A DNA stretch of 47,289 nucleotides. Origin: Alphaproteobacteria bacterium. GTDB taxonomy: Bacteria; Pseudomonadota; Alphaproteobacteria; SHVZ01. Within the stretch, counting starts at the first letter, position 1; each line of letters starts with the position of its first letter. The position numbers were made by a program, and so were the translations under genes. The notes under the pieces are model-generated. The model was given only the letters and a program-made list of their open reading frames with translations. It made no database searches and was not told the origin of the DNA. Where the stretch lies: the NCBI GenBank assembly GCA_016869375.1, contig VGEH01000015.1:1-47289 (forward strand). The letters run 5' to 3'. Below, in pieces: positions 3,784-40,044 of the stretch.

Positions 3784-5096
3784 CCGACGAGCCTGGCCGG
3801 AAGCCAGGTGGCGACGGCGGGAAACAGCAGCAGCAGCGCCAGCAGGGCGAGGCTCATCGCCACATAGGGCACGACGGCGCGGAAGATGTGGCCCATCGTC
3901 ACCCCGGGCGGGGCGACGCCGCGCATCGTCATCAGCAGCAATCCATGCGGCGGCAGCAGCAGCCCGAGCTGCATGCAGACCAGGAACAGAACGCCGAACC
4001 AGATCGGGTCGATGCCGAGCTTCACCACGAGCGGCATGAACACCGGAAGCGTGATCAGCATCATGCTGACCTGGTCGACGAAGATGCCGAGGAAGATCAG
4101 GATCAGCAGCATCCCGACCAGGATGGCGAAGGCGGAAAGGCCCTGGCCCAGGATCGCCGAGACCAGCCCGTCGGTGGCGCCGGAGAAGGAGAGGATCTGC
4201 GAGAAGGTAGTGGCGCCGAGGATGATGAAGAGGATCATGCCGGTGATCGCCGCCGTGCCCTCGAGCGCACGCAGCAGCGCGCGAACCGTCAGCGCGCGGT
4301 AGGCGAGCGCCATCGCCAAGGTGGCCAGCGCGCCGAGCGCGGCGGATTCGGTCGGCGTGGCGAAGCCGCCGGACATGGCGCCGACCACGACGACGAAGAT
4401 CGAGACCAGCGGCACGACGTAGAAGGCCAGCAGCCGCCATCCCTCGCTGCGGTCGCCGCCTTCATCCTCGGCTCGCGGCGCGAGATCGGGGCGTCGGAGC
4501 GCGGCCAGGACGATGTACCCGACGAAGGCGACGCTCAGGATCAACCCGGGCACGACGCCGCCGATCAGCAGCTTCGAGATCGAGATGCCCGACAGGCTGC
4601 CGAGCAGCACGGTCAGCGCCGAGGGCGGGATCAGCATGTCGACGGCGCCGATCGCCATGATCGGCCCGGTGGCGAAGGCCGGCTTGTAGCCGCGGGCCAG
4701 CATCACCGGCAGCATCAGCGAGCCCAGCATCGCCGTGGTCGCGATGGTCGAGCCGGAGATCGCCGAGAACACCGTGCCGGCGACGACGGCGATCACCGCG
4801 AGCCGCCCCGGCACCCGCCGGATCAGCCGCTCGACGCCCTCGATCACCTTGAGCGCGAGGCCGGTGTGGAACAGCAGCTCGCCCATCAGGATGAAGAGCG
4901 GGATGGGCGTGAGCGAGAAGTTCATCACCGAGACAACGCTGTTCCGCGCCACCTGCAGCAGCCCCGCATCGCCGCCGAGGAAGAGGATCGCGCCCAGGAT
5001 GTTGATCGCGACGAAGGAGAGCGCGACCGGCATGCCGAGGAAGAGAAGGGCCGCCGAGCCGCCGAGGAGGAGGAGGGCGGAGAGCTGCCAGATCAT
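3780..5096 (-). CDS. dctM: TRAP transporter large permease (DctM-like)
   Basis: Multi-TM; GSTIATTAMLGSLMLPVMLARGY, LIPPSALTVLLG, FLGIFVDQVSMMLITLPVF motifs. Confidence 0.9.
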   Translation of the reverse strand: MIWQLSALLLLGGSAALLFLGMPVALSFVAINILGAILFLGGDAGLLQVARNSVVSVMNFSLTPIPLFILMGELLFHTGLALKVIEGVERLIRRVPGRLAVIAVVAGTVFSAISGSTIATTAMLGSLMLPVMLARGYKPAFATGPIMAIGAVDMLIPPSALTVLLGSLSGISISKLLIGGVVPGLILSVAFVGYIVLAALRRPDLAPRAEDEGGDRSEGWRLLAFYVVPLVSIFVVVVGAMSGGFATPTESAALGALATLAMALAYRALTVRALLRALEGTAAITGMILFIILGATTFSQILSFSGATDGLVSAILGQGLSAFAILVGMLLILIFLGIFVDQVSMMLITLPVFMPLVVKLGIDPIWFGVLFLVCMQLGLLLPPHGLLLMTMRGVAPPGVTMGHIFRAVVPYVAMSLALLALLLLFPAVATWLPARLVG

Positions 5097-5646: not shown

Positions 5647-6591
5647 CTACTTCGCGAAGAACTCCTTCAGCTTCGGCCCATGCTCGGGGCTCTGCTTGAT
5701 GATGCCGGCCCAGCCCTCGGCGACGGCCTTCCTGCGGAAATCGTCGCCGAGCGAGATCACCTGGATGCCGGCGGCCTTCTGCCTGGCGATGTCGGCCTCG
5801 TTCTCCTTGGTCACTTCCGACGACTGCGCTTCGAGCCAGGCGGAGGCATCGGAGATGATCTTCTTCTGCCGGTCGTTGAGCTTGTTCCAGGAGGCCTTGT
5901 TGATTAGCACGCTGACCTCGGCCGAGTAGAAGCCGGGATCGACTCGGTACTTGGTCTTCTCGTGCCAGCCGAGATCGAAGACACCGGTGATCGGCCAGCC
6001 ATAGCCGTCGACCACGCCGCGCTCGAGCGCGGTGTAGACCTCGCCCGGCGCGGTCTGCACGACGGTGGCGCCCTGCGCCTGGAAGAAGTCGCGATAGACC
6101 GGCGTGATGCGGAGCTTGAGGCCGGTCAGGTCGGCGCTCGAGATCGGCTTATTGAGATAGAGGTGGAAGGGGTTGTTGTCGATGTGACGCGCCAGCATGA
6201 TCGCGTTCATCTTCTGGTCATAGAGCTTCGCCATGTAGTCGAAGCCGCCGTTGCGGCGCAGCTCCGCCATCGGCCTTTCGGTCAGCTTCCACGCATCCGC
6301 CTCGGGGATGACGTTGGTGTAGAAGGCGCCGGTAACGTTGGCGATGTCGACCACGCCCCCTTTCAGCGCATTGCCGACCTCGAAGGGCGGCATCGCCTTA
6401 GGGCCCCCGATGTAGTTGATCTGCACCTGCCCCTTGCCCTCGGCATTCACCTTGTCGATGAACGCCTCGAAGCCGCGCGAATAGAAGGTCTTCTCGGCGA
6501 AGGAGGTGATCGCCTTAAGCGTCACTTCCTGGGCGGCGAGCGGTGCCGAAAGCGAAACGAGCGCGGCGAGAGCCGCTCCGAACAGACGCAT
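5647..6591 (-). CDS. dctP: TRAP transporter substrate-binding protein (DctP-like)
   Basis: Signal peptide; LKLRITPVYRDFFQAQGATVV, YTALERGVVDGYGWP motifs; order P-Q-M on minus strand. Confidence 0.88.
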   Translation of the reverse strand: MRLFGAALAALVSLSAPLAAQEVTLKAITSFAEKTFYSRGFEAFIDKVNAEGKGQVQINYIGGPKAMPPFEVGNALKGGVVDIANVTGAFYTNVIPEADAWKLTERPMAELRRNGGFDYMAKLYDQKMNAIMLARHIDNNPFHLYLNKPISSADLTGLKLRITPVYRDFFQAQGATVVQTAPGEVYTALERGVVDGYGWPITGVFDLGWHEKTKYRVDPGFYSAEVSVLINKASWNKLNDRQKKIISDASAWLEAQSSEVTKENEADIARQKAAGIQVISLGDDFRRKAVAEGWAGIIKQSPEHGPKLKEFFAK

Positions 6592-20590: not shown

Positions 20591-22618
20591 CTACATCAGA
20601 TCCCGTTCGGTGGTGTTGGACCAGGTCTTGCGGAAGATCTCTTCGTCATTCTCGAAGACGACCGCTTGCTGGGCGAGCACCCAGTCGGTCTTGGTGGCGT
20701 GGAAGGAAAGCTCGGTCTCGATCCGGATGATCCAGTCGTCGTCGCGGTCCAGCTCGTAGACCTGGCGGTAGAAACCTGTCGCCGAGGTCGGGTCTCCTTC
20801 GGTGATGGTGAAGCGCTTGAGCAGGTTATGCCCGATCGCGGTACCGGTGGGCAGCCGCCATCGGCGGCCGGGGCCGAGGAAGCCGCCGATGCCGACCGTC
20901 TCGACCGTGATCTTGCCGCTCATCGCATCCTGGACGATGTGGCGCGTGATCTGCTTGTCCTCCTCGACCACGACCTCGATCTCCGGTCCGCGCTCGTTCG
21001 GCCCGAATGTCGCTCTCCGGCTCCGGCCGGTCAGGACCGGCAGCGAGAAGGTGCTGGCGCCGGTATAGAGGGTCATCTTCACCATCTCCGGCGCGGGCCA
21101 GACAATCGGCCAGTAGGAGGTGGAGAGCGCCAGCCGGATGCGATGACCGGGCGTGAAGGTCCAGCCGACATCGGGCAGCTCCAGGCGGATGCGCATGCGC
21201 TGGCCGCGGATGACCGGCTTCGGCGACTCGTGGCTTTCGCGATGCGTCAGGTTCAGCACCTGAAAGGCGACGCGGACCGAGGTGCCGTCCGGCGCCACGT
21301 CGCAGAGGCGGGCGACGACCTGCGCCACCGGCTTGTCGACGGAGATGTCGGCCTCGAGCACGGCGCGGCCGAGAATGTCGATCGATCGCGACAGCGGTTC
21401 GGTATCGAAGCAGAGAGAGCGGCCGTCATCCTCGCGCTGGTCGCGCGGCTGCTCGCCCTCGATCGCCATGCTGAGCCATTCCGTCGCGGCGAGGCCCGTC
21501 GCCAGCGGCGAGGAGTGGACCAGCGCCTTCTCCGCCCAGGCGCGCTTGTCGAGGCGGCCGCTGCCGAGGAAGTATTTCTCGGGCACCACCTTCTCCGACG
21601 GCCAGCCGTCGAGCGCGAGCCAGCGGCCGGATTTCACTCCATAGGTCGAGGAGGGCCGGTCGAAGGTCTGGAGAAAGACGCGATATGAGGGATCGCGATC
21701 CCAGCCGTTGTCGATGTCCTTCACGTAGCGGTCGAAGAAGCGGACACAATCCTGGAGGAAGCCGACCTCCGGTCCCGGCACGCCGTCATGGGGGTAGTGA
21801 TGGCCCCAAGGACCGATGAGGCCGAAGCGCGGGCCTTGCAGGTTCGCCATCAGGCGCGGCACGGCGCGCGAGATGTAGTCGGCCCAGCCGCCGACGGCGA
21901 AGACCGCGCAGGTCACCTTGTCGAAGCGCTCGCAGAGCGAGGCGTGCTTCCAGAAATCGTCGCGGCGCTGGTGCTTGAGCCAGTCGACGAGCCAGGGGTG
22001 ATTGTCCTCGAGCCGTGCCTTCCAGATCGCGCGCCAGGTCTCGCCGACAATCTCGGGGTCGGGCGGGCGCGCGTTGAACTCGATCATGGTGTCGGTCCAC
22101 CAGAGCTGCTCGCAGAGGAAGGCGCCGCCGGTCCAATGCAGCGACTGGTCGTAGCGGTCGTCGCCGGCGCAGACCGGGATGATCGCCTTCAGCGCCGGCG
22201 GCGCCATGCCGGCGAGCGCGAGCGCCGTGAAGCCGCTCCACGACTTGCCGATCATGCCGACCGTGCCGGAACACCAGGGCTGCTTCACCATCCACTCGAT
22301 CGCGGCGATGCCGTCGTCGAGCTCGCCCTGTTCCCATTCGCCGCGCAAGAGGCCGTCGGAATCGCCGGAGCCGCGCGTGTCGATGCGCAGGCACGCATAA
22401 CCATGGCCGGCGATGTAGTGATGGATCGCCTCGTCCCGGGCGCGGCTCTGGTCGCGCTTGCGATAGGGCATGTACTCGAAGATCGCCGGCACCTTCTCCA
22501 GCTCGGCGTCCTCGGGCAGCCACACCCGTGCGGCGAGACGGTGGCCACCCGGCATCGGGATGAAGACGTTCTCGATCGTCTTGACGCGGCGGGGATAGCG
22601 GGTGCGGACCGGCTTCAT
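20591..22618 (-). CDS. CocE/NonD family hydrolase (second, tandem)
   Basis: MPGGHRLAARVWLP, GTVGMIGKSWSGFTAL, DTRGSGDSDG, GPWGHHYPHDG; likely start MKPVRTRY at 22618. Confidence 0.87.
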   Translation of the reverse strand: MKPVRTRYPRRVKTIENVFIPMPGGHRLAARVWLPEDAELEKVPAIFEYMPYRKRDQSRARDEAIHHYIAGHGYACLRIDTRGSGDSDGLLRGEWEQGELDDGIAAIEWMVKQPWCSGTVGMIGKSWSGFTALALAGMAPPALKAIIPVCAGDDRYDQSLHWTGGAFLCEQLWWTDTMIEFNARPPDPEIVGETWRAIWKARLEDNHPWLVDWLKHQRRDDFWKHASLCERFDKVTCAVFAVGGWADYISRAVPRLMANLQGPRFGLIGPWGHHYPHDGVPGPEVGFLQDCVRFFDRYVKDIDNGWDRDPSYRVFLQTFDRPSSTYGVKSGRWLALDGWPSEKVVPEKYFLGSGRLDKRAWAEKALVHSSPLATGLAATEWLSMAIEGEQPRDQREDDGRSLCFDTEPLSRSIDILGRAVLEADISVDKPVAQVVARLCDVAPDGTSVRVAFQVLNLTHRESHESPKPVIRGQRMRIRLELPDVGWTFTPGHRIRLALSTSYWPIVWPAPEMVKMTLYTGASTFSLPVLTGRSRRATFGPNERGPEIEVVVEEDKQITRHIVQDAMSGKITVETVGIGGFLGPGRRWRLPTGTAIGHNLLKRFTITEGDPTSATGFYRQVYELDRDDDWIIRIETELSFHATKTDWVLAQQAVVFENDEEIFRKTWSNTTERDLM

Positions 22619-22746
22619 GCGAGAGAGGCTAGGCGCGACGCCGGTCAGATCCAAGAAGCTGTTGTCCCCGAGTGAAACGCCTCGTGCTCCTCCCCCGTCT
22701 GCTTCGCAGCCGAGGGAGGGAGTGAAGAGTGGGGTGAAACGAAACC

Positions 22747-22784
22747 TATCGGGTCATCAGCCAGACTTATCGGGTTGTATCGGG
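22747..22784. repeat. Three direct TATCGGG heptamers at 22747, 22768, 22778
   Basis: Read directly: ccTATCGGGTcatcagccagactTATCGGGTtgTATCGGGaag; offsets 21 and 10 bp. Confidence 0.6.
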
Positions 22785-22829
22785 AAGCGTAACTCGACCC
22801 GCTCAAGGCGCCGCCCTAGGCTCGGCGCC

Positions 22830-24914
22830 ATGACAGCCATTCGCGTCGCCGCCGATATCGGCGGCACCTTCACCGACATCGCCGCGACGCTTCCCGACGG
22901 CACCATCGCCACGCACAAGGTTCTGTCGACGCCGGGCGACTATGCCGCCGCCGTGGTCGACGGCGTCCGCGACCTTCTCGCCCAGCGCGGCGTCAAGGGA
23001 AGCGAGGTCGAGGAGGTGCTGCATGCCTGCACGGTCGCGACCAACTCGATCCTGGAAGGGAAGGGGGCGAAGACAGCGCTGGTGACCACGCGCGGCTTCC
23101 GTGATGTGCTCGAACTCCGCCGCGTGCGCGTGCCGAAGCTCTACGATCCGCTCTGGGTCAAGCCGACGCCGCTGGTGCCCCGCGATCTCCGCTTCGAGGT
23201 GACCGAGCGTCTCGGCCCCGATGGTTCCGTGGTGACGGCGCTCGACGAGGCCGATGTCGATCGCGTCATCGCCGAGATCGGCAAGGCGAAGGTCGAGGCG
23301 ATCGCCGTCTGCTTCCTGCACTCCTACGCCAATCCGGATCACGAGCGCCGCGTCGGGGCCAAGCTGAGGAAGGCCTTCCCGAACGCCTTCGTCACGCTCT
23401 CGGTCGACATCCTGCCCGAGATCCGCGAATACGAGCGCACCAGCACGACGGTCGTGAACGCCTATGTCGGCCCGCCGGTGAAGACCTATGTCGGTGCGCT
23501 CGCCGATCGCCTGAAGAGCGACGGGGTCGCCGGACGGCTGCTGGTCATGCAGTCCTCGGGCGGCATCCTCGACGCGCCGACAGTGATGGACCAGCCGGCG
23601 CGCATCGTCGAATGCGGGCCTGCGGCCGGCGTCATCGGCGCGGCGCGCGTCGCTGCGGCGGCCGGCATGAACGACGTGCTGACATTGGACATGGGCGGGA
23701 CCACGGCGAAGGCCTCGCTGATCGAGGCCGGTCGCATCGCGCATACCGACGAATACGAGGTCGGTGGCGGCATCTCGCTGTCCAGCCGGCTGGTCAAGGG
23801 CGCGGGCTACGCGCTGAAGCTGCCGGTCATCGACATCTCCGAAGTCGGTGCCGGAGGCGGCAGCCTGGTCAAGTTCGACCGCGGCGGCGGCTTGAAGGTC
23901 GGTCCGGAGAGCGCCGGCGCGATGCCCGGGCCCGCCTGCTACAACCTCGGTGGCAGCGAGCCGACGGTCACCGATGCCAATGTCATCCTGGGCTTCGTCA
24001 ATCCGACGGCGCTGGCCGGCGGCACGGTTCCGATCGATGCGTCCAAGGCGAAGGCCGCGATCCAGGACAAGGTCGCGCATCGCCTTGGCAGCTCGGTCGA
24101 GGGCGCCGCCTGGAGCGTCTACGAGGTCGCCTCATCGACGATGATGCGCGCGCTCAAGGCAGTTTCCACCTATCGCGGCCGCGACCCGCGCGAGTTCGGC
24201 CTTGTCGCCTTCGGCGGCAATGGCGGTGTCTTCGGGCCGCATCTGGCGAAGGAGCTCGGCATCAGCCGCGTGATCGTGCCGCCGGCCGCGGGGGTTCTCT
24301 CGGCAATTGGATTGCTCGTCTCCGACGTCGCCTTCGGCCGTTCGCGCGGCTATCTCAAGCAGACGCTGGAAGCGAAGCCGGCCGATATCGGCCGCATCCT
24401 CGACGAGCTTGCTGCGGAAGTGCTGGCGAAGCTCGGCCCCTGGCAGAAGACGGCGACGCTCTCCCGCGTCGCCTCGATGCGCTACACGAGCCAGGCTTTC
24501 GAGCTGCCGGTCTCCATTCCCGACGGCAAGGTCACGGCGGAGACGCTGAAAGCGCTGCCGGCGCGCTTCGAGGCCGAGCACCAGTCGACCTACGGCCATA
24601 ACTTCCGGGGCACCGTGCCGACCGAGATCGTCGCGCTCTCGGTGACCGCCACGGCGCCGGCCGGCGGCTCGGCCGAGACCATGCGCGTGTCGTCGGGGCG
24701 AGGCGAGGGTGCCGAGCAGACGCGCCGCGCCTATTTCGGGCCACGTCATGGCTGGATCGCGACGCCGGTGCTCGGCCGCGCCGCGCTGGGCGCGACGCCG
24801 CGCCAGGGACCATTGATCGTCGAGGAGTACGAGGGGACGACCGTTGTGCCCCCGGGGGCATCCGCGTCGCGCGATCCGATCGGCAACATCACCGTCGTGT
24901 TCGGAGGGCGCTGA
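22830..24914 (+). CDS. hyuA: Hydantoinase/oxoprolinase family, HyuA-type subunit
   Basis: VAADIGGTFTDIAA, HACTVATNSILEGKGAKTALVTTRGFRDVLE, LTLDMGGTTAKASLI motifs; ATG 22830. Confidence 0.92.
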   Translation: MTAIRVAADIGGTFTDIAATLPDGTIATHKVLSTPGDYAAAVVDGVRDLLAQRGVKGSEVEEVLHACTVATNSILEGKGAKTALVTTRGFRDVLELRRVRVPKLYDPLWVKPTPLVPRDLRFEVTERLGPDGSVVTALDEADVDRVIAEIGKAKVEAIAVCFLHSYANPDHERRVGAKLRKAFPNAFVTLSVDILPEIREYERTSTTVVNAYVGPPVKTYVGALADRLKSDGVAGRLLVMQSSGGILDAPTVMDQPARIVECGPAAGVIGAARVAAAAGMNDVLTLDMGGTTAKASLIEAGRIAHTDEYEVGGGISLSSRLVKGAGYALKLPVIDISEVGAGGGSLVKFDRGGGLKVGPESAGAMPGPACYNLGGSEPTVTDANVILGFVNPTALAGGTVPIDASKAKAAIQDKVAHRLGSSVEGAAWSVYEVASSTMMRALKAVSTYRGRDPREFGLVAFGGNGGVFGPHLAKELGISRVIVPPAAGVLSAIGLLVSDVAFGRSRGYLKQTLEAKPADIGRILDELAAEVLAKLGPWQKTATLSRVASMRYTSQAFELPVSIPDGKVTAETLKALPARFEAEHQSTYGHNFRGTVPTEIVALSVTATAPAGGSAETMRVSSGRGEGAEQTRRAYFGPRHGWIATPVLGRAALGATPRQGPLIVEEYEGTTVVPPGASASRDPIGNITVVFGGR

Positions 24915-24915
24915 T

Positions 24916-26649
24916 ATGGACACCGTCCAGCCCAACACCGATCCGGTGCTGACCGAGATCGTCCGCAACGCGCTCGATGCCATCGCCGACGAGATCGCGC
25001 TGATCGTGCTGCGCACCGCCTGCTCGGGCATCGTGCGCGACTCGATGGACTATTCGACCGCGGTCTGCGATGCGGCCGGCGGCACGCTGGCGCAGGGGCT
25101 CACCACGCCTCTGCATCTCGGCAGCTTCCACGATGCGATGCTGGCGCTGATCAAACGCTTCGAGGGCGATGTCGCCGAGGGCGACATCTTCATCTTCAAC
25201 GATCCCTATCTGTCTGCGGGCCAGCATCTCCCGGACATCTACATTGTCCGTCCCGTGTTCGTGGAGGGCACCCTGGAAGCCTGGGCCACGACGGTCGCGC
25301 ACCACACCGACGTCGGCGGCATCGTGCCGGGCAGCAACTCGATCGGCTCGACCGACATCTACCAGGAAGGGCTTCGCCTCCCTTTCCTCAAGCTCGCTTC
25401 GGCCGGCGTCGAGAACAAGGCGGTGCTCGACATCCTCGCCGCCAATGTACGCGTGCCGGAGAAGGTGCTGGGCGATCTGAACGCCCAGATCGCGGCGACG
25501 GCGATCGGCGTCCGCGAGATCCAGTCGCTGTTCGCCAAGTACGGCAAGGCGACCTTGCGCGCGACCTTCGCCGAGATCCACGACCACGCCGAACGCCTGG
25601 CGCGCTCGGTGATCGCCGAGATTCCGGACGGCACCTACAAATTCGAATCCTGGATCGACGGCTTCGGCGAGAAGCCGGAGCCGATCCGCTTCTGCGCCGC
25701 GGTCACCGTTTCGGGCGATGAGATCACCGTCGATCTCGACGGCACCTCGCCGCAGGTGCCGGCCGGCATCAACGCGCCGGTGCCCTTCACCAAGGCTGCG
25801 TGTTACGCCGCGATCCGCTCGATCATGGGCGAGGAGATCCCGAATGCCCTGGGCTTCACCCGCCCGATCCATGTGAAGGCGACGCTGGGCTCGATCGTCA
25901 ACCCGCGCTCGCCCGGCGCCTGCGGCGCACGCGGCATCACCGGCTTCCGCACCATGGACACGGTGTTCGGCGCGCTGGCACAGGCGGTGCCGAACCGCGT
26001 GCCGGCCGACGGCAATGGCGGCTCCTCGATCCCGGCGATCGGCGGCGAGCACCAGGGCAAGCCCTTCGTCTTCGTCGAGACCTTCATGGGCAATTGGGGC
26101 GGCTCGGCCTCGGGCGACGGCCAGGAAGGCGTCACTCATATGGGCGCCAACCAGTCGAACGTGCCGGTCGAGATGATCGAGGCCGAGTACCCGATCCGCA
26201 TCGAGCAGTACGGCCTCGTGCCGAATTCGGGCGGGCCGGGCAAGCATCGCGGCGGTCTTTCGATGATCCGCGACTACCGCTTCCTCGGCGATGCCGGACC
26301 ATGAACGCTCCGCTCTGACAAGCGCCGCTTCCCGCCCTTCGGTCTTTCCGGCGGCAAGGCGGGATCGCCCTGCCTCTCGATCATCAATCCGGACAAAGAG
26401 GCGCGCGCGCTGCCGGTGCTGATCACCGAGCCGGTGACGCTGCGCAACGGCGATCTGTTCCGTCACGTGCTGCCGGGCGCGGGGGGCTGGGGCAACCCGC
26501 ATGAGCGCGATCCCGAGCGCGTGCTAGAGGATCTGAAGCTCGGCAAGGTTACGCGCGAGCATGCGCGCGAGGCCTATGGCGTGGTGATCGCGGGCGAGCC
26601 GCCGCACGTCGATGCGGAGGCGACGCGGAAGGCGCGGGTGCCGCGTTAA
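24916..26649 (+). pseudogene. hyuB: Hydantoinase B/oxoprolinase (HyuB-type), interrupted by in-frame TGA at 26302-26304
   Basis: 24916..26304 gives HyuB (RTACSGIVRDSMDYSTAVCDAAG, FNDPYLSAGQHLPD); after the TGA the same frame reads TLRSDKRRFPPFGLSGGKAGSPCLSIINPDKEARALP..GAGGWGNPHERDPERVLEDL..AYGVVI to TAA at 26647-26649. Whether truly non-functional is unknown. Confidence 0.8.
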
Positions 26650-26902
26650 CCATGTTGCGGCTCGTCGACGATCTGGTCGCGGATTGCAGCCGGCAAATCT
26701 GACCTAGAGTCTGCTTCGCTGACTGGTCGTGTGCGCAAACGCCGGCAATGGAGATGGTCAGACCTGAGGCGCAACGAACGCTGCGACTCAAATGATTATC
26801 CCAGACTCCTCTCACCGGGGTTCGTCATACGCTGGAGCGCCGGTGCTGGCACCGGACATGCAACCACCCGTTGGCTGTTCATCGGCAGCCAGGGGGATGC
26901 TC

Positions 26903-27487
26903 ATGACGTCATTCAGGATCGTAAAGGGTCCGGTTAACGAGGCGTGCGCGGTGCCGGGCATCGGCGCGAGGTACGGCGCGGCGTGGGGGCCGCAGGCTGA
27001 TCGCACGAACGTCGCACTCATGTCTTTCGGCTACGCGGAGAGTTCCGGAATCGTGACGATCGATCCGGCTACCAGCGAGTTCACGCTGAGCCATGTTCCG
27101 CCCGAAGGGCTCGTGGGCGAGGGGCGTCAGGCCCAGATCGATCTTCTGCTGCAGCACGCCGCTCCCTATCGCTCGTTCGTGCTGCTGGTCGGCGGACTTT
27201 CTCCCAGGCGGGGCGACGATGGGCCGGCCAGCGGTCCTTGTGTCGGGATCCTGAGGGAGGCGGGATTCCCTGCGGTCGCCGATTTCACCGGACCGAGCGG
27301 GCAGTCCTGCGACGTTGCCGTCTCGGCGAACGGGATCTGGATCGCCACCCGTCCGCCGGCGACGCGGGTGCTCCTCATGACCTTTGTCGGCGCGGCGGGG
27401 CTGGGCGTACCGGTCGACGCGCCATCCAGGCCGCGCTGGTTCATCCCGTCGTGTGTGGTGGCCGCGAAAGACGAAGCGAGAGCCTGA
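26903..27487 (+). CDS. Uncharacterised protein
   Basis: Open frame with AGGGGG upstream of ATG 26903 (alternative ATG 26897); no recognised family. Confidence 0.5.
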   Translation: MTSFRIVKGPVNEACAVPGIGARYGAAWGPQADRTNVALMSFGYAESSGIVTIDPATSEFTLSHVPPEGLVGEGRQAQIDLLLQHAAPYRSFVLLVGGLSPRRGDDGPASGPCVGILREAGFPAVADFTGPSGQSCDVAVSANGIWIATRPPATRVLLMTFVGAAGLGVPVDAPSRPRWFIPSCVVAAKDEARA

Positions 27488-27542
27488 GCGCCATCGCCGG
27501 ATTTCGTAGCGAAAGGCGACCTCCGACTGTAGGGTCCGCCGC

Positions 27543-28280
27543 ATGACGACCGCGACCATTGGCGGCAAGCGCATCATCGGCGTGCTCGGCGGCATGGGGC
27601 CCCTGGCGACCGTAGACTTCATGCGCAAGGTCATCGAGGCGACGCCGGCGACCAAGGACCAGGAGCACATCCCGATCGTCGTCTGGTCGGTGCCGCAGAT
27701 CCCGGATCGCTCAGCCTCGATCTACGGCAAGGGCGAGTCGCCGCTGCCGATGATGCAGGACGGGATCCGGCGGCTGGAGCAGATAGGCGCCGGTTGCATC
27801 GCGATCGCCTGCAACACCGCGCATTACTGGTACGAGGAGATGCGGCGAGGCAGCAGCGCGAAGCTGCTGCATATCGGCGAGACCACGGCCGAGGGGCTGG
27901 TCTCGCTCGGCATTCCGCGCGGGCCGGTCGGCCTGATCGCCACCGACGCGACGATCGAGACGAAGATCTACCAGGATCGCCTCGGCGCGCATGGCTACGA
28001 CAGCCTGGTCCTGCCGAAGGAAGACACTGACCGCCTGTTCTGGCCGGCGGTCCGCAAGGTCAAGGCGAACGACACCAAGGCCGCCGTGCCACTGCTCGAG
28101 GAAGCAGTCGAGCGCCTGGTAGCGGCGGGCGCGACCCGCGTCGTGCTCGGCTGCACCGAGGTTCCCATCGGCCTGGCGGAGGCACGCAGGGAGATCCGCG
28201 CACTCTGCTTCGATGCGACCGATGCGCTCGCGCTCGCCTGCGTCGCCTGGGCGAGCGCCGAGACCGCGGGCGCACCCTAG
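27543..28280 (+). CDS. Aspartate/glutamate racemase family protein
   Basis: IGVLGGMGPLATVDF, CIAIACNTAHYWY, RVVLGCTEVPIGL (paired catalytic Cys motifs). Confidence 0.9.
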   Translation: MTTATIGGKRIIGVLGGMGPLATVDFMRKVIEATPATKDQEHIPIVVWSVPQIPDRSASIYGKGESPLPMMQDGIRRLEQIGAGCIAIACNTAHYWYEEMRRGSSAKLLHIGETTAEGLVSLGIPRGPVGLIATDATIETKIYQDRLGAHGYDSLVLPKEDTDRLFWPAVRKVKANDTKAAVPLLEEAVERLVAAGATRVVLGCTEVPIGLAEARREIRALCFDATDALALACVAWASAETAGAP

Positions 28281-28301
28281 GCCGGCAGCGCCGCTCCTCG
28301 A

Positions 28302-29075
28302 ATGAGCACGATCGGACAGGGGCGCATTGTGGCCTGGGAAGGCGGCAGCCTCTGGATCTTCAGGACCAGTTCCTTCGCCGGACCGGGAATGCATGCGACG
28401 GATTTCCATTCGCATCATGCGATACAGGCGACTCTGGCTCTCGATGGGCGCTTCGAGCTACGGACCCCCGACTCGAGGATGCGAGGCGACGCCGTGGCTG
28501 TTGCCGCGGACGCGCGCCACCTTTTCGAGGCGGAAGGATTGGTCGCGATCGTGTTCGTGGAGCCCGAGAGCCGGTCCGGACGGGCCATGAGCCGTGCTCT
28601 GTTTGCGGGCTCGCCTCTGGCGAGCATCCCGCGGGACCGGCTTGGCGACCTGATCGACCGACTGAGAGCGGCCTTCGGCGATCCTGCCGCCGACGATGCG
28701 GCCGTGGCCGAGATCGGCCGCTCCGTCGTCGCCCGCCTCGCGGGAAACCTGGCCGCCGACACGCCCGATCACCGGGTGAGGAAGATGATCGCTTTTGCGG
28801 CTGGCGCGATCGACCGGCCGCTCAGCCTTGCCGACGTCGCGACAGTAGCGGGGCTGTCTTCCGGCCGGGCCAGGCACCTGTTCGTCGAACAGACGGGGCT
28901 TCCCTTTCGGACCTATCTTCTTTGGCTGCGCGTGACCAAGGCGGTCGAGGTATTCGCCGCCGGGCGATCCCTGACGGAGGCGGCGCACGAAGCGGGATTT
29001 GCCGACTCGGCCCATCTCAGCCGAACCTTCCGGCGAATGTTCGGCCTCACCGCGGCGTCCCTCCGCATCGAATAG
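28302..29075 (+). CDS. AraC family transcriptional regulator
   Basis: C-terminal double HTH: SLADVATVAGLSSGRARHLFVEQTGLPFRTYLLWLR..GRSLTEAAHEAGFADSAHLSRTFRRMFGLTAA. Confidence 0.9.
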   Translation: MSTIGQGRIVAWEGGSLWIFRTSSFAGPGMHATDFHSHHAIQATLALDGRFELRTPDSRMRGDAVAVAADARHLFEAEGLVAIVFVEPESRSGRAMSRALFAGSPLASIPRDRLGDLIDRLRAAFGDPAADDAAVAEIGRSVVARLAGNLAADTPDHRVRKMIAFAAGAIDRPLSLADVATVAGLSSGRARHLFVEQTGLPFRTYLLWLRVTKAVEVFAAGRSLTEAAHEAGFADSAHLSRTFRRMFGLTAASLRIE

Positions 29076-29166
29076 GGAAGGACGCCTTTTAGCCGTTTCG
29101 TTCAAGTCGACGCCGGCATGCCGGGCGTAGAAGCGGGCCTTCCCAACCGGAAACCAGGAGGTTCCC

Positions 29167-29334
29167 ATGACCAACGCCTGCAATTGCGATCCCTGCACCT
29201 GCGCCCCGATCTGCACCTGTACCCAGGCCGACATTCGTGCCGACGCGGCTCCCGAATGGACCGGCGGGTGCGGCTGCGGGTGCGGCTGCGCCTCCGCCGC
29301 TGCGTGCGTGGCCGAGTGCGACTGCACCGGCTGA
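29167..29334 (+). CDS. 55-aa cysteine-rich metallothionein-like protein
   Basis: MTNACNCDPCTCAPICTCTQADIRADAAPEWTGGCGCGCGCASAAACVAECDCTG; 13 Cys in 55 aa; AGGAGG 5 nt upstream of ATG; hairpin terminator downstream. Confidence 0.8.
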   Translation: MTNACNCDPCTCAPICTCTQADIRADAAPEWTGGCGCGCGCASAAACVAECDCTG

Positions 29335-29385
29335 TGAGAGCCTGCCTCGCGTGCCCCTGCCTCCCCATCAGCGGCAAACGAAAAC

Positions 29386-29411
29386 GGGGGGCCGAAGCCC
29401 CCCGCTCTTTA
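29386..29411. terminator. Strong, possibly bidirectional intrinsic terminator between cys-rich gene (+) and SBP gene (-)
   Basis: Perfect 8-bp stem CGGGGGGC-CGAA-GCCCCCCG, followed by CTCTTT on + and preceded by GAAAA (TTTTC on -). Confidence 0.8.
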
Positions 29412-29429
29412 GGCATATGAAGGTTCGGC

Positions 29430-30980
29430 CTACTCGAACCAGACGTCCCACATGCGCGGGATACGGCCCGGCGCGTAGTTCTGGACGTTGGCGCGGACGG
29501 CCTGGTAGCGGCCGAGATCGCCGACCTTGATCGCCGGCACGAACTCGAAGAACCGCTTCTGGAAGTCGGCGAAGGCCTTCTGACGGTCCTCGAGCTTGAG
29601 GGCGGTGTTCAGCACGTTGTTGGCGCGCTGCAGCTCGGGATCGGCCATCCACTGGGCGCCCTTGCCGTCATAGTCGGTGGCGAAGAACGAGGTGACGTTG
29701 TAGGGGCCTTCGTAGGGTTCGATGCCGAAGCCGAGCGTCCACAGGCTCCAGCCTTCCGGCTTGGCGCGCAGGTTGAACGCGGTCGGCCAGTCGACGGTGT
29801 TGAGCTTGATGTTGAGGCCGGCCTTCTTCAGCTGCTCGGCGGCGACGACGCCGGTCTGCTGATGGTTGGCGATCGTCGAGTCGGTGAGGATGACGATCTC
29901 CTCGCCCTTGTAGCCGGCCTCTGCGAGCAGGCGCTTCGCCTTGGCCATGTCCTTCACGTTGTAGTCGGACTTGCCGATGTCGCCGGCGAAGTAGCTGGTG
30001 CCCGGATGCTGCCAGCCATGGGTCAGGCGGTAGAGGCCTTCACCCGCGATCGCCATGATCTCTTCGGCATCGATAATCGCCTGGATCGCCTGGCGCACCT
30101 TCTGGTCCTTCGTGGGCCCGAAGGAGGCGTTGACGATGATGGTCTGGAACGCCCAGGGCATCGCCTCGATGATCTTAATGTTCTTGTTGTCCTTGAGGCG
30201 CTTGGCCGAGGGCGGCGGCAGCGCGTCGACGGCGTGGATCTCGCCGGCCTCCAGCGCGGCCGAACGGGCGCCGCCCTCGGGGATATGGCGGAAGCGGACG
30301 GTGTCGAAATAGGCGGTCTTCTTGCCGCCGAAGCCGTCGCGCTTCTGGAAGTTCATGTTCTGGCTATAGCCGTCGAAGCGCTTCACCAGCACATGGCTGT
30401 CCGGGACGTACTCGACGAACTGGTAGGGGCCCGTGCCGATGTGGTCGATCTTGCCGCGCTCCTTGCCGGCTTCCGACTTCGGCATGATGCCGGCCGGGGC
30501 GCGCGGGCTGGAGAGCTGGTCGAGGAAGCCCGGGACGGGCTGCGCCAGCTCGACGGTGACGACGTATTTCGAGGTCGCCGTCATCTTGGTGATCGGCTTG
30601 ATGATCTGGGCCGAGCCACCGACCTTGCCGTAGCGCTCGAGTGAGGCGATCACATCCTCGGAGGTCATCTCCTGGCCGTTGTGGAACTTCACGCCCTGGC
30701 GCAGCGTGAAGACGTAGGTCTTGCCGTCGGCCGAGATGTCGGCCTTGGCGGCGAGATCGGGAATCACGTTGGCATTCTCGTCGCGCGCGAACAGCGTCTC
30801 GATCCAGTGCAGCGAGATGTTGCGCGAGGCCTCGGCCGTGGAGGCCTGGGCATCGGTCAGCGGCGGCGCCGACGACGTGCCGACGATGGCATTCCCGCCC
30901 TTCTTCTGGGCAAGCGCCGGCGAGATGGCGACCGCCAGCGCGAGCGCGCTTACGGTCGACAGAAGTGTCACCCTGAACAC
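29430..30980 (-). CDS. ABC transporter substrate-binding protein, peptide/nickel family 5
   Basis: Signal peptide; YVFTLRQGVKFHNGQEMTSEDVIASLERY, IGTGPYQFVEYVPDSHVLVKRFDGY. Confidence 0.9.
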   Translation of the reverse strand: MFRVTLLSTVSALALAVAISPALAQKKGGNAIVGTSSAPPLTDAQASTAEASRNISLHWIETLFARDENANVIPDLAAKADISADGKTYVFTLRQGVKFHNGQEMTSEDVIASLERYGKVGGSAQIIKPITKMTATSKYVVTVELAQPVPGFLDQLSSPRAPAGIMPKSEAGKERGKIDHIGTGPYQFVEYVPDSHVLVKRFDGYSQNMNFQKRDGFGGKKTAYFDTVRFRHIPEGGARSAALEAGEIHAVDALPPPSAKRLKDNKNIKIIEAMPWAFQTIIVNASFGPTKDQKVRQAIQAIIDAEEIMAIAGEGLYRLTHGWQHPGTSYFAGDIGKSDYNVKDMAKAKRLLAEAGYKGEEIVILTDSTIANHQQTGVVAAEQLKKAGLNIKLNTVDWPTAFNLRAKPEGWSLWTLGFGIEPYEGPYNVTSFFATDYDGKGAQWMADPELQRANNVLNTALKLEDRQKAFADFQKRFFEFVPAIKVGDLGRYQAVRANVQNYAPGRIPRMWDVWFE

Positions 30981-31129
30981 GATGGAAACCTCCCAATGGA
31001 CGAAATCGGATACGGAAGAAGGAAGCCTATGATGGCCGTTCGAGGCTTGGCAATCAAGATCGCTCCCATCGGAAACACGGCTTCGTGACGGCTGGAATCG
31101 ATGCTATTGCGACAGGAAAAGGGGGGCGC

Positions 31130-37326: not shown

Positions 37327-38322
37327 GTGCCACCAGTGATCGACTTCAAGCAGATCGACTGGGTGCCGCCGGGCCTGATCGTCGGCATGGCGCTGATCGC
37401 GCTCCCTCTCGTTGGCGATCCGGCGGCGTGGCTGACGCTGACCGTCGCCGCGCTCGCCATGGGCATGATGATCTTCGTGATGTCCTCGGGCCTGACGCTG
37501 GTCTTCGGCCTGATGGATGTCATCAATTTCGGCCATGGTGTCTTCATCTCGATCGGCGCCTATGTCGCGCTGCTCGTCTTCGTGCCCTTGGCCGCGTGGG
37601 GCGCGGCGGACTCGCTGACGCTCAACCTGGCGCTGGTCGGCCTCGCCATCCTCGTCTCGATGACCGCGACCGGCGCGCTGGGATACGCCTTCGAGCAGGT
37701 GGTGATCCGGCCGGTCTATGGCCAGCACTTGAAGCAGATCCTGATCACCACCGGCGGCCTCATCGTCGTCGAGCAGCTGATCCATGCGCTCTGGGGCGCC
37801 AACCCGATCCCGCTCCGCCTGCCGGAGACCTTGCGTGGCTCCTTCCTGATCGGCGATGCCGCGGTCGAGCGTTTCCGCGTCTTCGCCATCGTGCTCGGGC
37901 TCGCGGTCTTCGCCGCGATGTATATCGGCCTCAACCGCACGCGCATCGGCCTCCTGATCCGCGCCGGCGTCGAGAACCGCGAGATGGTCGAGGCGCTCGG
38001 CTACGACATCAGGAAGATCTTCATCGGCGTCTTCGTCGCCGGCTCGGCGCTGGCCGGCCTCGGCGGCGTGCTCTGGGCGCTCTACCGCCAGATCCTGGTC
38101 GCTTCGATGGGCATGGAGATGATGGTGCTGATCTTCATCGCCATCATCATCGGCGGGCTGGGCTCGGTCGGCGGCTGCTTCGCCGGCTCGATCCTGCTGG
38201 CGCTGCTTGCCAACTACACCGGCTTCCTGGTGCCGAAGCTGGCGCTGGTCTCCAACATCCTGCTGATGCTGGCGATCCTGGTATGGCGGCCGCAGGGCCT
38301 CTACCCGGTGGCGAGGCGCTGA
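37327..38322 (+). CDS. livH: Branched-chain amino acid-type ABC permease (LivH-like)
   Basis: SSGLTLVFGLMDVINFGHGVFISIGAY signature; GTG start 37327 (or 37336). Confidence 0.9.
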   Translation: MPPVIDFKQIDWVPPGLIVGMALIALPLVGDPAAWLTLTVAALAMGMMIFVMSSGLTLVFGLMDVINFGHGVFISIGAYVALLVFVPLAAWGAADSLTLNLALVGLAILVSMTATGALGYAFEQVVIRPVYGQHLKQILITTGGLIVVEQLIHALWGANPIPLRLPETLRGSFLIGDAAVERFRVFAIVLGLAVFAAMYIGLNRTRIGLLIRAGVENREMVEALGYDIRKIFIGVFVAGSALAGLGGVLWALYRQILVASMGMEMMVLIFIAIIIGGLGSVGGCFAGSILLALLANYTGFLVPKLALVSNILLMLAILVWRPQGLYPVARR

Positions 38323-39389
38323 TGATCGCGCGCCTTCTCTCCGGCGACCTGCCGCGCTCCCATGCGCTGACGGTCGTTCTCGTGATCGTCCTGGTTTCGC
38401 TCGCCGGCGCGCCCTTCCTGTTCCCGGGCAGCCAGTCGCTCAACGTCGCCGCCAAGATCTGCGTCTTCATCGTTCTGGCGGCGAGCTACGATTTGCTGCT
38501 GGGCTACACCGGCATCGTCTCCTTCGCGCATACGATGTTCTATGGCATCGGCGGCTACGGCATCGCCATCGCCATGCACGGGATAGGCGCCAATTGGGGC
38601 GCGATGGGCGTCGGCATCGCGCTGGCGCTTCTCGTCTCCCTGATACTCGCCGTGGTGATCGGCCTCTTCTCGCTTCGCGTGCGCGCGATCTTCTTCGCCA
38701 TGATCACGCTCGCCGTCGCTTCCGCCTTCGCCGTGCTCGCCTCCCAGCTCCGCGACATCACCGGCGGCGAGGATGGGCGCAGCTACTCGGTGCCGGCGAT
38801 GTTCCGCCCGTCCTTCCGGCTCTTCGAGCAGCCGGTGCTCGGCGTCTCGATCACCGGGCGGATTCTTACCTATTACATCGTCTTCACCTCCTCGCTGCTC
38901 CTGTTCCTGGCGGCGCTCCGCATCGTCAACTCGCCCTTCGGCCGCGTGCTGCAGGCGATCCGCGAGAACGAGTTCCGCGCCGAGGCGCTGGGCTATCGCG
39001 TCGTCGTCTACCGCACGGTCGCGAGTGTGCTCTCGGCGGGCATGGCGACGCTTGCCGGCGTGCTGATGGCGCTCTGGCTCCGCTACACCGGTCCCGACAC
39101 CACGCTCAGCTTCGCCATCATGATCGACATCCTGCTGATGGTCGTGATCGGCGGTATGGGCACGCTCTATGGCGCCGTGCTCGGCGCCACGATCTTCATC
39201 CTCGCGCAGAATTACCTGCAAGTCGTGATGGGCAAGCTCTCGGCGGCAACATCCGGGATTCCGTTGCTGCCGCAGTTGCTCCACCCGGATCGCTGGCTGC
39301 TCTGGCTCGGCATCCTCTTCGTGCTCTCGGTCTATTTTTTCCCGACCGGCATCGTCGGCAGGCTGAGGAGTGGGAGGCTAAAGGCCTAA
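38322..39389 (+). CDS. livM: Branched-chain amino acid-type ABC permease (LivM-like)
   Basis: AASYDLLLGYTGIVSFAHTMFYGIGGYG, LQAIRENEFRAEALGYRV; ATG overlaps livH stop. Confidence 0.9.
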   Translation: MIARLLSGDLPRSHALTVVLVIVLVSLAGAPFLFPGSQSLNVAAKICVFIVLAASYDLLLGYTGIVSFAHTMFYGIGGYGIAIAMHGIGANWGAMGVGIALALLVSLILAVVIGLFSLRVRAIFFAMITLAVASAFAVLASQLRDITGGEDGRSYSVPAMFRPSFRLFEQPVLGVSITGRILTYYIVFTSSLLLFLAALRIVNSPFGRVLQAIRENEFRAEALGYRVVVYRTVASVLSAGMATLAGVLMALWLRYTGPDTTLSFAIMIDILLMVVIGGMGTLYGAVLGATIFILAQNYLQVVMGKLSAATSGIPLLPQLLHPDRWLLWLGILFVLSVYFFPTGIVGRLRSGRLKA

Positions 39390-39450
39390 CTCCGCTGGCC
39401 GGTCTTGAAACGAGGCGCAGAGCGGCTACGGTGTCGCGGGGGGCCATAAA

Positions 39451-40044
39451 ATGGGTAACCTGACCGTACTAGCCGTCGCTTCGGTACTTTTGTTGATTGG
39501 CTCATCTAAGGCAGCTGAGCCGTTTGGGGATTGGCGTGTCGAGGCGAATAGGGATCGGTATTCCGACAAGGAGACGGTGTTCGCTGCGACTTATGCGACG
39601 AAGACCAACGCTAGTCAGAAGCCTGTTTTTGCGTTCGCCTGTGGTGATGCGCTAGGTCCTCCTGGCTCGATCGGCATCACATTCGTCTGGCAGAACAATG
39701 GTCCTATCCAAGAGTCCCGCGTTACCGTTTCCTCCACCGGTGTTAGCGAAGTTTTCGACGTAGGAGTTCTTGGCGCCCGTCGCGAGGGCGTCGGCGTGAG
39801 ACCTGACGACTATGCTCGGCTTCTCTCATTCATTCGTGATCGCGAAACCTTTGACATATCGGCTCGTATGACATGGGGCGGGTTAACGGCGACGTTCTCG
39901 ACGCGCGGAATGAAGGCTGCGTTCGAAAGATTGCAAGACGCTTGTGGCGGTCCGAAGGTCGATGAGGTACCGGCGCAAGTAGTATGTCCAGCTGGTACTC
40001 AGTTGGTTCTTGGCTCCAATCCGCCCATATGCAGACGCCAGTAG
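39451..40044 (+). CDS. Secreted hypothetical protein in a lower-GC patch
   Basis: Signal peptide MGNLTVLAVASVLLLIGSSKAAEPFGDWRV; paired C-terminal Cys; sampled lines 52-57% GC versus about 72% in a neighbouring line. Confidence 0.65.
   Translation: MGNLTVLAVASVLLLIGSSKAAEPFGDWRVEANRDRYSDKETVFAATYATKTNASQKPVFAFACGDALGPPGSIGITFVWQNNGPIQESRVTVSSTGVSEVFDVGVLGARREGVGVRPDDYARLLSFIRDRETFDISARMTWGGLTATFSTRGMKAAFERLQDACGGPKVDEVPAQVVCPAGTQLVLGSNPPICRRQ

Follow-up and report, generated by a model that had tools for sequence, protein, structure and literature searches.

A Cys-rich small gene linked to an AraC-type regulator as a candidate for an undescribed metallothionein-like family in Alpha- and Betaproteobacteria

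Few bacterial metallothioneins are known, and their control has been described in terms of ArsR/SmtB-type repression. SmtB and AzuR repressors control the known cyanobacterial metallothioneins, and negative regulation has been proposed for the expression of prokaryotic metallothioneins (PMC8790569). In Pseudomonas, the metallothionein operon is without metal-responsive regulators (PMC7387436). A search of the non-subscription literature returned neither an AraC-regulated metallothionein nor a paper on the protein family DUF3703, which recurs beside the genes described here. We analysed a 47,289-nucleotide stretch of DNA (the window) from an alphaproteobacterial assembly (GCA_016869375.1, contig VGEH01000015.1), in which an initial annotation had singled out a short Cys-rich ORF. 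That account was right about the gene and missed the AraC-type regulator ahead of it, the promoter element between them and the operon of DUF3703 and a membrane protein found in relatives. The small gene probably encodes a metal-binding stress protein that is switched on in an unusual way.

The ORF runs from an ATG at 29167–29169 to a TGA at 29332–29334 and translates, letter for letter as claimed, into a 55-aa protein, MTNACNCDPCTCAPICTCTQADIRADAAPEWTGGCGCGCGCASAAACVAECDCTG (P0001), with 13 Cys and a single aromatic residue and without His (Table 1). The AGGAGG Shine-Dalgarno reported for it is also present, with the ATG five bases further on. Among 44,455 ORFs of 35–80 aa from 200 first-order Markov (Markov-1) shuffled copies of the window, none had at least 13 Cys in 45–70 aa, which excludes a chance origin. 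Across the window and 35 related loci, at least 16% Cys was reached by 20 of 1041 ORFs of 35–80 aa, 18 of them being the small gene or its counterparts. The ORF at 29167–29334 is a real gene, and an under-annotated one that is missed by the standard family models. The cassette is embedded in a region of hydantoinase, Asp/Glu racemase and peptide-transport type (22602–31000), where metal genes are not obvious. Elsewhere in the window, positions 38001–40000 show a lower GC content (0.628) and a strong AT skew (−0.249) relative to the remainder.

Table 1. Position and basis of the features at the small-gene locus, in window coordinates
Feature	Position	Strand	Basis or remark
AraC/XylS-type regulator, 257 aa, proposed activator of the small gene	28302..29075	+	Pfam HTH_18, 9.3e-17
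Conserved element of the promoter, AGCCGTTTCGTTCAAG, a putative AraC operator that overlaps the −35 region	29091..29106	+	Pattern and alignment
−10-like TAGAAG	29128..29133	+	21 bp after TTCAAG; relatives mostly 20 bp to TAnA
Shine-Dalgarno AGGAGG, within conserved CCAGGAGGTTCCnATG	29156..29161	+	Sequence and alignment of intergenic regions
Metallothionein-like protein P0001, 55 aa, 13 Cys	29167..29334	+	Translation, syntenic homologues, selection in relatives
G/C hairpin between convergent genes	29386..29403	.	Terminator scan

The peptide-seeded search that the initial annotation had proposed yielded nothing usable. As a direct query (tblastn/HMM), the 55-aa peptide found no relative in the genome contigs or among the plasmids searched, and against related genomes it gave chance-level matches only. 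Matches of 24–26 residues in G002–G005 lie inside 41-aa frames and proved unrelated when checked, and at the weak model matches in G073, G362 and G691 there is no Cys-rich small gene. Homologous loci were reached instead by anchoring on the neighbouring AraC gene, using the AraC proteins of the window and of G002, a genome of the same genus, as a joint query and fetching 36 loci. In G002, the AraC orthologue is 61% identical, and behind it, in the same orientation, lies an ORF of 63 aa and 12 Cys that shares the CAGGAGGTTCCnATGACC start with the window ORF. Of the 20 closest loci (AraC identity 46–61%), 17 have a Cys-rich small ORF adjoining the AraC gene, as do two of the three loci at 42% identity; it mostly starts 82–107 bp after the last AraC codon. 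Additional cases occur on a Cupriavidus megaplasmid (L129) and in G145 (L134), and none was seen at more distant AraC loci (<40% identity). The relatives of the window AraC come from Caulobacteraceae, Hyphomonadaceae, Rhodospirillaceae, Oxalobacteraceae and Cupriavidus.

The members of the family have 36–63 aa, 8–14 Cys (only 8 in the Brevundimonas copies), 0–2 His and almost no aromatic residues. The N-terminus reads MT[DN]xCxCxPCxC in many of them, and the C-terminal block of most resembles CxCGxxCxCGxxCxC. The likeness to the SmtA/BmtA N-terminus noted for the window protein was borne out, its CxCxxCxC motif (CNCDPCTC) having counterparts in many, not all, relatives (CNCQPCTC, CACQPCTC). 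The GCGCGCGC run, previously interpreted as a CGCGCGC stretch replacing the SmtA-type second half, is the local form of the C-terminal CxC block of the family.

The small gene is under purifying selection in relatives and is tied to one AraC subfamily. The codon-conservation test suggested at the outset gave dN/dS values of 0.23–0.28 in three close pairs, and the loss of Cys conservation that had been named as evidence against the gene was not seen in them, all aligned Cys being kept (8/8, 9/9 and 13/13). More distant pairs mostly remain at or below about 0.5, with L082/L098 (~0.67) and L100/L103 (~0.89) as exceptions. The window copy is divergent, keeping only 9 of 14–16 aligned Cys relative to L084 and L098, and the selection acting on it is therefore read from its relatives.

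A single gain of the link between AraC and the small gene is not demonstrated by the AraC tree, which is weakly resolved and needs about five changes of small-gene label. On the Cupriavidus oxalaticus plasmid NZ_CP038636.1 (L130, ~5900–6150), a decaying copy of the cassette has AraC reduced to its last codons, the promoter element kept and an internal TGA in the Cys-rich ORF. In Methylomonas (L102, ~4870–5010), AraC and the promoter element are followed by a 50-aa ORF (MNRTNENLCHSNPGPG...) that contains no more than two Cys and may be an eroded remnant of the small gene. Five loci (L083, L084, L085, L090 and L098) come from deposits named Candidatus Marinimicrobia that carry alphaproteobacterial-looking genes at high identity, and this label is probably wrong for these contigs.

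The alignment of 19 intergenic regions revealed a common promoter layout, in which AGCCnnTnCRTTCAA is followed by about 20 bp, TAnA and then the Shine-Dalgarno; AGCCNNTNCRTTCAA, about 20 bp and TAnA succeed one another in 19 of 19 aligned loci. The pattern AGCCNNTNCRTTCAAG has one exact match in the window, with 0.07 expected when one mismatch is allowed. In its exact 16-base form, the pattern has a single occurrence in each of two genomes, the 5-Mb window genome and G002, and in both it lies at the small-gene locus, which is what a local regulator with one target would show. A pattern search did not find the element in G145 (L134), and pattern matches in class-level genomes were chance matches with no Cys-rich small ORF beside them. 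In Brevundimonas (L093 and L094, 4844–5142), the small gene is inverted and convergent with araC, and the element has moved with it; because the inversion keeps it upstream of the small gene, the element belongs to the promoter of that gene and not to the 3′ end of araC. A promoter scan found no consensus sigma-70 −35/−10 pair ahead of the small gene, as expected for an activator-dependent promoter. The earlier description of the ORF as a complete transcription unit of its own was not sustained: it starts 91 bp past the araC stop codon, with its own conserved promoter in between.

AraC homologues that lack the small gene (L091, L102, L106, L107 and L108) have this element, or a close variant of it, ahead of the next gene. 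In L106 and L107 (Mycobacterium), L108 (Acidimicrobiia) and L091 (Rhizobiales), AGCC...TTCAAG precedes unrelated genes, which were identified by eye as fatty-acid-hydroxylase-like in L106 and flavin-monooxygenase-like in L108, with a Crp-like kind also among the four loci. These loci belong to a broader AraC subfamily whose targets are local, and the element looks as a binding site for this subfamily would. Since the same element lies ahead of unrelated genes, the inducer may be something other than a metal.

The regulator itself carries the C-terminal HTH pair of the AraC family (PF12833 over residues 180–255), and its AlphaFold2 model (mean pLDDT 89.6) combines a cupin-like N-terminal half with a two-HTH C-terminal half, the best Foldseek matches being ToxT, Rns and CuxR. 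It has no Cys. Five residues (T33, H36, H38, H39 and H73) do not vary among 25 homologues and fit the cupin pattern HxH(x)3Q(x)6G...H, and the His residues could form a metal site. The motif was rejected as proof of metal sensing, given that a cupin His signature is common among AraC proteins, many of them without known metal binding, and that HxHH...H is equally invariant in the homologues without the small gene. By analogy with other AraC-family proteins, the regulator would bind the element directly and act by activation, not repression; we infer activation because the site overlaps the −35 region and a consensus −35/−10 pair is absent.

Downstream of the small gene, the hairpin that had been taken for its terminator does exist (GGGGGGC-CGAA-GCCCCCC), but its assignment to the small gene fits less well. 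In the terminator scan it scores only for the minus strand, as GGGGGGC-TTCG-GCCCCCC-GTTTTCGTTT, the plus-strand tail being only GCTCTTT, so that it more probably terminates the convergent gene at 29430–30980 (−), which encodes a solute-binding protein (SBP_bac_5). Nothing co-directional follows the small gene in the window. At the Caulobacter-type loci, in G002 and in Massilia, DUF3703 (PF12487, up to 1e-37) lies downstream of it, in most cases with a predicted membrane protein of 120–150 aa ahead of DUF3703 or fused to it. DUF3703 was not found in the window genome, an assembly about 90% complete, and the window has either lost the membrane protein and DUF3703 or never had them. The fusion is in frame in L088 (6013–6789), L090 (2898–3680), L082, L084 and L086, and the small membrane protein, which has no Pfam match, is a separate ORF in L083. 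In L135 (G326) and L139 (G015), the AraC homologue stands next to DUF3703 with no Cys-rich ORF, and in L135 the promoter element lies directly ahead of DUF3703. An alpha/beta-hydrolase gene follows in L088, L092 and L096. Copper-gene neighbours occur in only two loci: L088, where a P-type ATPase carries YHS/HMBD domains, and L083, with CopD; this is suggestive, but two loci are too few to establish copper as the specific metal.

We propose, with a probability of roughly 0.7, that the small protein is a cytosolic metal-thiolate buffer of an undescribed family, activated by AraC through the upstream element. The product of the upstream gene would bind AGCCnnTnCRTTCAAG over the −35 region of the small-gene promoter and, once bound, would activate that promoter. 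The Cys clusters of the protein, the N-terminal CxCxxCxC and the C-terminal CxC-rich block, would then sequester an excess of thiophilic metal, be it Cu(I), Zn(II) or Cd(II). A metal-buffering function is likely.

Organic ligands are the usual signals of AraC proteins. On this basis, the protein might instead be a pool of thiols sacrificed to electrophiles or oxidants, with AraC responding to a signal that is organic or oxidative in nature and the alpha/beta-hydrolase of some operons degrading the same compound. The lack of Cys in the regulator, the hydroxylase-like and monooxygenase-like genes behind the element in L106 and L108 and the hydrolase genes at three loci agree with such a role, which we nevertheless consider unlikely: the CxC/CxxC clustering seen throughout the family is typical of metal-thiolate clusters, not of plain thiol scavengers, and copper genes are neighbours at two loci. 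Far less probable is a modified and exported precursor peptide, that is, a Cys-rich RiPP such as a methanobactin-like or bufferin-like metal-binding peptide. A small Cys-rich peptide of variable length and conserved start would suit this role, whereas no modifying enzyme recurs nearby, the conserved partners being AraC, the small membrane protein and DUF3703, and a signal sequence is not apparent. The chances are slimmer still that the ORF is a regulatory leader, a Cys attenuator for downstream genes, even if a short ORF does precede X-DUF3703 in several relatives; the window has no co-directional gene for it to control, the strong Shine-Dalgarno is conserved and selection acts on the amino acid sequence. 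A chance ORF, for which a TGC-rich reading comes more easily at 67% GC, is refuted by the syntenic homologues under purifying selection, in line with the shuffled copies.

Returning to the metal-buffer reading, the protein has the composition expected of functional metallothioneins, with its Cys in CxC/CxxC clusters and few aromatic residues or His. Neither P0001 nor any of 18 relatives was matched by Pfam PF02069 at E≤1, and a PF02069 genome search at E≤10 did not return the small-gene locus; in the control set, which includes Synechococcus elongatus, the model matched over its cut-off in one genome. No family member matched the NCBIfam bacterial metallothionein models, and the PDB holds no solved structure related by sequence to the 55-aa protein. 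The central zinc finger (aromatic-CCxxC plus His ligands) is missing from P0001, which has neither His nor the motif, and the SmtA-type middle (YCCxxC/His) is absent throughout the family. As far as its sequence tells, the small protein resembles a metallothionein but is not a PF02069 member. What survives of the earlier suggestion of a divergent or new metal-thiolate class is a conserved Cys-rich gene without a match to any known family; the tie to PF02069 does not.

A broader interpretation would join these elements into a mobile metal-handling module of Alpha- and Betaproteobacteria, in which a metallothionein of an undescribed family, under positive AraC control from one operator, acts together with the membrane protein and DUF3703. 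We hold this view tentatively, at somewhat under even odds. If this is true, DUF3703 would gain a first functional context, and the family would be a case of an activator-controlled bacterial metallothionein. The link to AraC offers a testable set of regulator, promoter and target, along with the first genomic context for DUF3703. Moreover, a conserved family without a matching profile, linked to AraC and to a sharply defined putative operator, suggests that such proteins, short and lacking the SmtA signature, are under-counted.

Compared with known systems, the regulator shares with ToxT, Rns and CuxR the cupin-like half and the two HTH motifs, but is only 10–14% identical to them and has a metallothionein-like gene as its proposed conserved target. 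The CxC-rich composition recalls some eukaryotic metallothioneins, two of the 19 members matching Metallothi_Euk2 weakly (best E 0.0049) and one matching Metallothio_5 at E 2.9; these matches are sporadic, P0001 has none, and they most likely reflect Cys composition, not kinship. Like SmtA, BmtA and PmtA, the proteins are small and Cys-rich, with CxCxPCxC near the N-terminus and a CxC-containing C-terminus, but they differ in lacking the YCCxxCA zinc-finger middle, in having almost no His and in escaping the HMMs. Finally, the regulators of SmtA and NmtA are repressors of the SmtB/ArsR type, the SmtB/ArsR operon comprising an ArsR-type repressor and a 12-2-12 operator, whereas the family described here is linked to an AraC-type regulator and a single promoter element, AGCCnnTnCRTTCAAG.
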